From Emergencia sp. 1XD21-10 (lineage in GTDB: Bacteria > Bacillota > Clostridia > Peptostreptococcales > Anaerovoracaceae), in assembly GCF_009936045.1 (NCBI RefSeq), contig NZ_QWEQ01000025.1:1-55470 (forward strand): 55,470 nt of DNA. The letters are read 5' to 3'. A program made the translations under genes and the position numbers. The stretch's first letter is position 1. Every line of letters starts with the position of its first letter. The notes below the pieces were generated by a model. That model searched no databases and was not told the DNA's origin. It worked only from the letters and a program-made list of their open reading frames with translations. Shown here in pieces: positions 22,035 through 24,075 of the stretch.

Positions 22035-22095
22035 AGTCCGAAATCGGACTTTTGACAACAATATATAGTATAGTCCGAAGTCGGACTCGTGTCAA
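22035..22095 (-). promoter_or_regulatory. MarR-controlled promoter with two 16-bp palindromic operators
   Basis: On the minus strand TTGACA (22090-22095), 17 nt, TATACT (22067-22072) is a near-consensus promoter. A palindrome AGTCCGAAGTCGGACT (22072-22087) fills its spacer, and a second copy, AGTCCGAAATCGGACT (22035-22050), lies downstream of the -10. This is classic repressor geometry for the MarR gene that follows. The 22096-22169 stretch upstream holds nothing recognisable. Confidence 0.88.
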
Positions 22096-22179
22096 GAGGA
22101 ATTTTACCGTGTATAATCGCGCAAGAAGACTACAAGATAGAAATTTGTATTTTATAACAAAAGAAAAGGCATTTTACAA

Positions 22180-22580
22180 CACGGCAAACGCATGAAAACT
22201 TTCGCGGCTTTGTTCGTGAACTTTGCACGCCATGTAGATGTACTTTTTTCTTTAATATGGCGCTGACCATGGATGAAACGCCACATTTAATCCTATTTTA
22301 AAACGTAGCGGCGCGGTGTGAAAGAAATGCGCCATGTTCCGCTTTTATTCCTTGAAACATGGCGGTAATTACCCCTTCGCCTGCTCAACAGCGCCATAAC
22401 TATGGAAAAAGTTTTAAAATATGGCGTTCCAGAGGTGTCTTACGCCAGAGTTACGGGAAAAGCTTTAGAATATGGCGTTTTTGAAGTACCTCACGCCATA
22501 ATTTTGAAAAAAGCTTTAGAATATGGCGTGCTATTCGGCAAGGAACCTGTTCAGCTTTCAGATTTCATGCGTTTGCCGTG
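22180..22580. mobile_element. Hairpin array 2: TIR-bounded MITE-like element
   Basis: A 401-bp element with perfect 18-bp terminal inverted repeats: CACGGCAAACGCATGAAA at 22180-22197 and its complement at 22563-22580. It is flanked by 10-bp direct repeats with one mismatch (CATTTTACAA 22170-22179, CTTTTTACAA 22581-22590). Inside are six hairpin units whose left arms start at 22228, 22279, 22330, 22392, 22443 and 22494. Each is CGCCAT-N23-ATGGCG; the second unit is diverged to CGCCAC/GCGGCG, and the fifth has CGCCAG. Every loop is exactly 23 nt, and units repeat every 51 bp except one 62-bp step. Loop sequences differ except in the last three units. No transposase gene is present, so it would depend on an enzyme acting in trans. 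Confidence 0.8.
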
Positions 22581-22599
22581 CTTTTTACAAGAAATCCTA

Positions 22600-22627
22600 T
22601 TGACAGCACTAAAAGCCATGATAGAAT
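22600..22627 (+). promoter_or_regulatory. Promoter of the dipeptidase gene
   Basis: TTGACA (22600-22605), 16 nt, TAGAAT (22622-22627) lies 10 bp beyond the right direct repeat of the hairpin element. It gives a short leader with AAGGTTAGGA before the ATG at 22663. The element therefore sits immediately upstream of this promoter. Confidence 0.75.
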
Positions 22628-22662: not shown

Positions 22663-24075
22663 ATGGAACAGAGGATACTGGATACTATGCCGCAGGTAAA
22701 GGCTTATTTTGAAGCGCATCGTGCAGAGTTTCTGCAGGATTTAGCAGCGTTAATCGCTATAGATAGCCAAAGAACAGAGGCGAAAGAGGGTATGCCTTAC
22801 GGGGAAGGTCCGGCGCAGGCGCTGGCAAAAACGCTGGAAATTGCCGCAGGCTATGGACTTTACACGGAAAACTGGGAGAATTATGTAGGCATAATTCAGC
22901 TGGACGACAGCAAAGAGCGGAAATTGGAAATCCTGGCGCACTTGGACGTCGTGCCGGAGGGTAAAGGCTGGACAGTAACAGAGCCTTTTGTGATGAAAGA
23001 AGTGGACGGAAAAGTATACGGCAGAGGAACCGCTGATGATAAGGGACCAGCGCTTGCTGCCATTTACGCACTTCGCGCGATTAAGGAACTGGGAATTTCT
23101 CTGCAGCAAGGGGTCCGGGTTGTAGTCGGCTGCGACGAAGAATGCGGCAGTTCTGATTTGGACTACTATTGGACAAAGACAAGCCCTGCGGAGATGACAT
23201 TCTCACCAGATGCGGATTATCCTTTGATTAACTTGGAAAAAGGGCATTTCGGTGTGAAAATTAATGGAATTCTGCCAAAACAGACAGGCGTTGTAAAGAT
23301 TCAATCGGTGCAGTGCGGTACCAAGAGCAATGTGATTCCGGCAGACGCGGAGGCTGTGATTTCTGGTGTTTGTGAAGAAGAGATGCGAAAGCTCCTTGCG
23401 CAGCTGGCGGAAGAAACCGGTGTAGAAACTGCGCTTGCATCTGAGGGCACACAGCTTCACGTTGCCTTAAAAGGCACTGCCGCCCATGCAGCAGATCCTG
23501 ACGCAGGCAACAATGCGGCGACAGCAATGTTGCAGCTACTAGCGAAACTGCCGGAGGCAGATTTTGCAATGCTTAAGGCGCTGCACGAAATCTTTCCCCA
23601 TGGCGATGGTCACGGCAGATCTGCAGGCATTTACGGACAGGATGAGGAATCCGGTGAAATCAGTGTGTCCTTTAATATTTTGAACATCGATGAAACGGGA
23701 AATCTCTTTGCAGAGGTGGACAGCCGGACGCCGATTTCCATGAGCGAACCTGATTTTGCGCCGTTGCCTGAGAAACTGAAGTCAGCCGGTTATGCAGCAG
23801 AGACCAGTATTAGCGCGCCGCATTATGTATCGCCGGATACACCGCTTGTCAAGACACTGCTTGCGCATTATGAAACATGGTTCGGTGAGAAGGGAGAATG
23901 TATCGCCATCGGCGGCGGTACTTATGTGCACGGACTTCCGGGCGGCGTTGCTTTTGGCTGCGCTAAGCTGGGTGTGGATAACAAAATGCATGGACCGGAT
24001 GAGTTTGCGGAAATTGATCAGCTACTGGTAAGCGGAATGCTGTTTGCGACCGCGATTTATGATTTGTGTAAATAA
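22663..24075 (+). CDS. pepV: M20 dipeptidase, PepV/Sapep family
   Basis: Cytosolic metal-dependent dipeptidase that cleaves dipeptides with broad specificity. At 470 residues it matches PepV/Sapep length. Metal-site motifs are visible: HLDVVPEGKGW near 93, YGRGTADDKGP near 119, GCDEECGSSDLDYYW near 157, SPDADYPLINLEKG near 185, and the C-terminal GGGTYVHGLPGGVAFG near 417. It is a single-gene unit with its own promoter and terminator. It fits the peptide-catabolic theme of the window, completing breakdown of peptides inside the cell. The symbol is given by family resemblance. Confidence 0.9.
   Translation: MEQRILDTMPQVKAYFEAHRAEFLQDLAALIAIDSQRTEAKEGMPYGEGPAQALAKTLEIAAGYGLYTENWENYVGIIQLDDSKERKLEILAHLDVVPEGKGWTVTEPFVMKEVDGKVYGRGTADDKGPALAAIYALRAIKELGISLQQGVRVVVGCDEECGSSDLDYYWTKTSPAEMTFSPDADYPLINLEKGHFGVKINGILPKQTGVVKIQSVQCGTKSNVIPADAEAVISGVCEEEMRKLLAQLAEETGVETALASEGTQLHVALKGTAAHAADPDAGNNAATAMLQLLAKLPEADFAMLKALHEIFPHGDGHGRSAGIYGQDEESGEISVSFNILNIDETGNLFAEVDSRTPISMSEPDFAPLPEKLKSAGYAAETSISAPHYVSPDTPLVKTLLAHYETWFGEKGECIAIGGGTYVHGLPGGVAFGCAKLGVDNKMHGPDEFAEIDQLLVSGMLFATAIYDLCK

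Follow-up and report, generated by a model that had tools for sequence, protein, structure and literature searches.

The 401-bp element at positions 22180–22580 of the window (the whole 55,470-nt stretch of contig NZ_QWEQ01000025.1 of Emergencia sp. 1XD21-10 analysed here) is, with a probability that we place at about three in four, a gene-less mini-transposon with ISAs1-type ends, whose insertion is directed to promoters and whose interior is a mirrored array of putative protein-binding sites. The dispersed copies, the ends, the target duplication, the fixed distance to predicted promoters and the occurrence of the promoter at sites that lack the element can be read directly from the sequences compared. 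An ISAs1-like transposase, absent from those genomes of the genus that were searched, would have served as helper and moved the element with a 10-bp stagger. Insertion would target sigma70-type promoters at their upstream edge, placing the element end 19 (18–20) bp before the -35 hexamer, at about position -54. This position would most likely arise because RNA polymerase at the promoter, or a place beside it, serves as the docking site of the transposition complex. The interior 35-bp sites, with paired CGCCA arms, a central T-tract and helical phase, most likely serve a multimeric DNA-binding protein that contacts one face of the DNA, and the bound array may either aid transposition or shield or tune the adjoining promoter.

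The left terminal inverted repeat (TIR), CACGGCAAACGCATGAAA, lies at 22180–22197 on the plus strand and is the perfect 18-bp inverse of the right TIR at 22563–22580 on the minus strand, as an earlier sequence-only reading of this DNA had described. The pair is matched at 18/18 bp and, when extended to 21 bp, at 20/21; the same repeat bounds other elements too. The element is flanked by the left (CATTTTACAA, 22170–22179) and right (CTTTTTACAA, 22581–22590) copies of a 10-bp target site duplication (TSD), which agree at 9/10 positions. Six CGCCA-type units lie inside, and the window ORF search found no ORF of 80 aa or more overlapping 22180–22580. The -35 box of a predicted host promoter, TTGACA-N16-TAGAAT (22600–22627, plus strand), starts 19 bp from the right end of the element. 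A further 35 bp separate this promoter from the ATG of the gene downstream, which encodes an M20-family peptidase (22663–24075, plus strand; PF01546, 1.7e-25). On the other side of the element, the promoter region of a MarR-like gene (window 22035–22087) carries two near-identical 16-bp palindromes, AGTCCGAAATCGGACT and AGTCCGAAGTCGGACT. A similar pair is seen in the homologous locus L012, and the palindromes are probably the MarR-like gene's own operator.

The sequence-only reading had made mobility depend on copies of the 18-bp repeat elsewhere, and further copies are present both in this genome and in its relatives. At up to three mismatches, CACGGCAAACGCATGAAA has 42 matches in the genome versus 3 for a reversed control. 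At up to two mismatches it is found in 8 of 13 genomes of the genus, in three of these once only. The set of elements studied here comprises 47 rows (29 complete elements and 18 one-ended remnants, giving 76 ends) from genomes G000, G004, G005, G007 and G008, most genomes being drafts; duplicate loci of one element, such as L112 (the same element as L061), were dropped before promoters were counted. The complete elements are 64–401 bp long. A 10-bp TSD with at least 7/10 identity flanks 15 of the 29 (six perfect, four at 9, three at 8 and two at 7) versus 0.6% of cross-pairs, and a convincing TSD is missing in the remaining 14. Among registers 8–12 only 10 stands out, with a mean identity of 0.59 versus 0.26–0.39, which bears out the 10-bp duplication proposed for the window copy. 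The elements are thus short, gene-less, dispersed and bounded by TIRs and a TSD, as is expected of miniature inverted-repeat transposable elements (MITEs).

The only transposase found bounded by these ends is of the ISAs1 type. It lies in a genome of another genus (G177), within a 1673-bp element that has CACGGCATACGCATGAAA at one end and a sequence with three mismatches to CACGGCATACGCATGAAA at the other; CACGGCATACGCATGAAA itself is the window-type TIR with one change. These TIRs enclose the coding sequence, uninterrupted by stops, of a 378-aa ISAs1 transposase (PF13808, 1.7e-30; NCBIfam ISAs1, 5.6e-109). The contig stops at the second TIR, so the TSD is not readable there. A transposase with matching ends, which had been put forward as a check, therefore exists, but it was found only in another genus. 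ISAs1 loci of other hosts have similar ends, for example CAGGGCAATCGCATGA. Nine such loci were compared, of which five have credible ends and four yielded none, and perfect 10-bp TSDs are present in 4/9. The ISAs1 family is known for duplications in the range of 8–10 bp. Window-type elements resemble this family in having ends of the CACGGCATACGCATGAAA / CAGGGCAATCGCATGA type and a 10-bp duplication, and they differ from ISAs1 elements in having no transposase gene and an interior made of a site array. Of the family traits, the TIR type and the 10-bp duplication are thus found here, and a transposase in the same genome is not. The ISAs1-associated domain PF13808 is present in 0/13 genomes of the genus (3/14 control genomes are positive), and a protein search for ISAs1 transposases across 349 genomes of the bacterial family found three, none of them in the genus. 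With no PF13808 in any of the 13 genomes, the elements are non-autonomous, and their helper may have been lost, may be unsampled or unassembled, or may be of another kind. Judged by its sequence, the window element is a non-autonomous ISAs1-type mini-transposon and not a wholly unknown mobile type. The earlier description of a new non-autonomous element thus holds for its mobility and its lack of autonomy, but not for a wholly new type, given that the ends and the duplication belong to the ISAs1 family.

The clearest feature of the element is its 19-bp distance to the host -35 box, which falls outside the stretch that the sequence-only reading had covered. Reading outward from the 76 ends, the TTG that starts a -35 box is found at offset 19 in 23 of them (background 1.6% per position, P about 7e-23), at offset 18 in nine and at offset 20 in one. 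A -10-like TANNNT is found at offset 42 in 24/76 ends. A -10 box usually follows the TTG at offset 19, but some of the 23 ends lack one, including the left end of the window element, and the sequence of the 19-bp gap shows little conservation. All promoters described here are predicted, as consensus matches and not as mapped starts. Within 60 bp of the ends there are 37 full promoter matches (at least 4/6 in both boxes): 18 at offset 19, four at offset 18 and no more than three at each of the remaining offsets up to 59. As a control, the flanks on the opposite strand have 14 full matches, with at most two at any offset. Promoters that score at least 9 in our own scheme lie outward of 32/76 ends versus inward of 5/76. 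By genome, the position rule is followed by 17/19 rows of G000, 2/2 of G004, 4/6 of G007, 8/15 of G005 and 1/5 of G008. Truncation was observed in four of the six first-set elements of G007 (L078, L082, L086 and L094), all of which retain the same (left) end; two of these, L082 and L094, have TTG at 18–19.

A held-out set, consisting of the remaining TIR matches, was scored in the same manner. TTG is at offset 19 in 5/32 of these ends (P 4e-5), or in 4/30 once the ends already used are subtracted (L080 and L073, which are the already-used ends L114 and L111). None of the seven held-out matches in G005 fits the rule. Most of the other held-out matches, which are single, carry 2–3 mismatches and are putative ends, are also off the rule. 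There are three complete held-out pairs: L183 fits and has a TSD of 9/10, L182 has TGGACA at 19, and L199 is off the rule.

Could the fixed distance be a product of selection and not of targeting? Insertion might be broad across upstream regions, with the survivors being those whose end at about -54 acts as an upstream promoter element or an activator site. In keeping with this, the promoter position is also kept by 11 of the 18 one-ended remnants, and a distance of 19 or 18 bp persists at bare ends, for example L054 and L070. However, the retention of bare ends is also explained by the removal of deletions that run into the promoter, which would be purged anyway. A regulatory site should moreover tolerate shifts by whole helical turns, to about 29 or 40 bp, and such offsets hold no more than the three full matches noted above. 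We therefore regard selection alone as an unlikely source of the fixed distance and favor directed insertion.

Related sites without the element also carry the promoter. The empty site in a relative that the sequence-only reading had proposed to compare is represented by L012 of Emergencia sp. SUG182, where the MATE-MarR-peptidase block can be aligned to either side and the promoter is present. The L012 intergenic region contains no TIR (the best match has eight mismatches) and no CGCCA unit; its DNA is too diverged for the exact joint to be read. A second case is the element at L059, where the promoter belongs to a tRNA gene. G008 has the homologous promoter and the initial portion of this tRNA gene but no element between or beside them. 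In G011, G002 and G012 the tRNA gene comes with a promoter-like sequence of its own, and no TIR lies near it in these three genomes (best matches of 5–7 mismatches in 3 kb).

Insertion at a set distance from promoters is known from other mobile elements. According to the published work, TnGBS/ISLre2 elements (p-MULT 3) and some elements of the ISKra4 group (p-MULT 4) encode Mutator-like transposases, insert 15–17 bp upstream of sigmaA promoters and generate duplications of 8 or 9 bp. The window-type family resembles TnGBS/ISLre2 in its insertion at a fixed distance upstream of promoters and differs in its distance of 18–20 bp, its 10-bp duplication and its ISAs1-type ends. Promoter-distance insertion itself is thus already published, and what is new here, relative to that work, is the combination of a distance of 19, a duplication of 10 and ISAs1-type ends. 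The fixed distance is a property of the window-type family and is absent in the ISAs1 elements compared from elsewhere: of the five with credible ends, none has a -35 box at 18–20. TTGACA lies at 15 in one ISAs1 copy from the same bacterial family and at 8 in the other. The occurrence of fixed-distance insertion together with ISAs1 ends suggests either that docking at promoters arose repeatedly in evolution or that the position is set by a host factor and not by the transposase. The dozens of natural insertions, with their promoters, make this question testable. A search of titles and abstracts in one literature library found neither this family nor promoter-distance insertion by ISAs1.

Modular intergenic repeats are also known. 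The BOX elements of Streptococcus pneumoniae contain a variable number of inner modules of about 45 bp. We know of no promoter-distance rule for BOX elements, and their ends and sequence differ from those of the window element. BrickBuilt of Porphyromonas gingivalis is, by its abstract, an intergenic MITE with an internal tandem array of 23-nt repeats (PMC4596501). The window element is likewise an intergenic MITE with an inner array; unlike it, BrickBuilt has repeats without spacers, and its abstract mentions no fixed promoter distance (PMC4596501).

The array of the window element is mirrored: its three left units carry the T-tract on the plus strand, its three right units on the minus strand. 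The left half consists of unit 1 (22228–22262, 35 bp, exact arms), unit 2 (22279–22313), which is degenerate with three arm mismatches (CGCCAC...AGCGGCG) and was oriented by inspection of its T-tract, and unit 3 (22330–22364, exact arms). The right half consists of unit 4 (22392–22426, exact arms), unit 5 (22443–22477, one arm mismatch, CGCCAG) and unit 6 (22494–22528, exact arms). The unit-to-unit steps are 51, 51, 62, 51 and 51 bp. The six units and their spacing are therefore as first reported, but the arms are identical in only four of the six. Exact CGCCAT-N23-ATGGCG motifs occur 21 times in the 3.39-Mb draft genome versus 0 for the reversed pattern. Among these 21, L020 was rejected as an apparent chance match, as it lies inside a 424-aa ORF with no array. 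Within the window and 20 loci, a loop length of 23 is found at 34, 35 and 28 places at 0, 1 and 2 arm mismatches, and the other loop lengths of 15–31 reach maxima of 2, 4 and 26 places, respectively. Across 73 units, the conserved loop positions are T at 18–21, TT at 8–9 and A at 26. A sequence-only model was built from 71 units and up to 150 candidates were scored per genome. At E<=1 it matched at least 77 sites in this genome, at least 73 in G008 and at least 13 in G007; ten other genomes of the genus had 1–9 matches each among the candidates scored, which is near chance.

The units were originally described as hairpins, and each CGCCAT-N23-ATGGCG could in principle fold once it is transcribed or exposed as single-stranded DNA. 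The arms are indeed inverted, and the RNA fold of the whole element is better than that of shuffles (z -6.5), but the TIRs and the mirror symmetry would yield such a fold too. The arms themselves do not behave as a stem. In 71 aligned units, 0/426 cells are changed on both sides, and arm pairing is 88.7% versus 89.6% in shuffles. With no two-sided changes and pairing slightly below that of shuffles, the arms resemble two half-sites. A 6-bp stem with a 23-base loop also speaks against folding, as does the helical phasing of the units. Rfam contains no family above cut-off in the element, and only tRNAs were found across 19 related loci. Without covariation or an Rfam family, the hairpin reading was set aside as very improbable.

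A protein bound to one face of the DNA, which the sequence-only reading had suggested from the helical spacing, agrees better with the steps between units. At a period of 10.45 bp, 22 steps other than 51 bp, hand-picked as one representative per family, stay in phase with R=0.77, and 0/5000 jitter controls are as high. The result is unchanged when five left-out steps (40, 52, 52, 52 and 54) are added to give 27 values, and 4/5000 controls reach the phasing value when CGCCA steps alone are used. Such phasing favors a protein complex on one DNA face, and an array of protein-binding sites appears likelier than one of RNA hairpins on the strength of these patterns. The phase between unit dyads and the promoter gives an R of 0.75 for 43 TGACA dyads and 0.14 for 17 CGCCA dyads, of which the former may merely mirror the internal phasing and the copies of one family.

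The array may also be functionless, the debris of a 51-bp segment that was tandemly duplicated within a decaying MITE. Duplication could give rise to both the 51-bp steps and the mirrored halves, and in the homologous locus L025/L034 the arms are changed as well as the loops. What makes this account improbable, although we give it some weight, is that the loops vary in sequence and yet keep a constant length of 23 and a constant T-tract, and that the non-51 steps mentioned above remain in phase. CGCCA arrays are, moreover, present in many loci without a pair of these TIRs. The motif sought by the sequence-only reading is not tied to these ends, and a binding array remains our preferred interpretation.

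Conversely, most elements with these ends hold arrays other than CGCCA. TGACA...TGTCA units are found within same-TIR elements such as L047, L048, L068 and L072, GTACT units within L042 and L049, CGCCTTCAT...ACTTGCG units within L096 and L100, and GCACCAT units within L156. Two elements of G005, L099 1069–1157 (89 bp) and L103 1541–1604 (64 bp), have no room for an array, and both lack a target duplication as well as a promoter at 18–20. When inverted 6-mers were counted without bias, the maximum was at a span of 35, with 17 versus 3.1 expected, though most spans of 26–46 are also raised and the signal comes mainly from 7 of 19 representatives (TGACA-type, CGCCAT and GCACCAT). For the GTACT, CGCCTT, TGCC and CGCMA classes, likeness of geometry was judged by eye only.

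These overlaid features allow a more tentative proposal, which we consider rather doubtful: the ends and the landing position would be constant across a mini-transposon family with exchangeable docking arrays, and the helically phased arrays would be swapped, each matched to its own DNA-binding protein. At L013, the same peptidase promoter as in the window has a same-TIR element 18 bp before its -35 box, but with a TGACA array; L013 is identical to L090 of G007 over 3018 bp. If arrays are exchangeable, the CGCCA array of one species and the TGACA array of another at this promoter would represent a swap, and the elements would scatter ready-made upstream control regions over host promoters. Different arrays were also observed in the same intergenic region of two species at L028 (CGCCA, no TIR pair) and L055 (TIR element), and at L029 (CGCCA) and L094 (TIR element, truncated). 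Sites with different arrays may be either hot spots or places where arrays were exchanged. Phased arrays with differing arms, located just upstream of peptidase, tRNA and other promoters, are a possible further source of regulation.

CGCCA arrays without the TIRs have outward promoters at scattered distances and no fixed one (35, 40, 40, 47, 48, 66, 68, 136, 144, 156 and 160), counted from the outermost unit and not from an element end. Beyond the bacterial genomes, the CGCCA pattern was matched in 31 viral contigs by pattern match alone, and blastn against plasmids and phages gave no match to the element. Matches to the TIR pattern in two viral contigs (L115 and L116), which overlap ORFs, and in G151 (L149), which lies inside a 417-aa ORF, were judged to be due to chance. 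At L108 1000–1350 of G005, palindromic GTAACG...CGTTACGC units are arranged in tandem and adjoin an ISAs1-type end. The window genome also contains similar elements of several hundred bp with CGCCA arrays and no ISAs1-type TIR pair (L018, L019, L021, L022, L023, L024 and L027), and terminator-like hairpins of the GAGACAG type border several of these copies.
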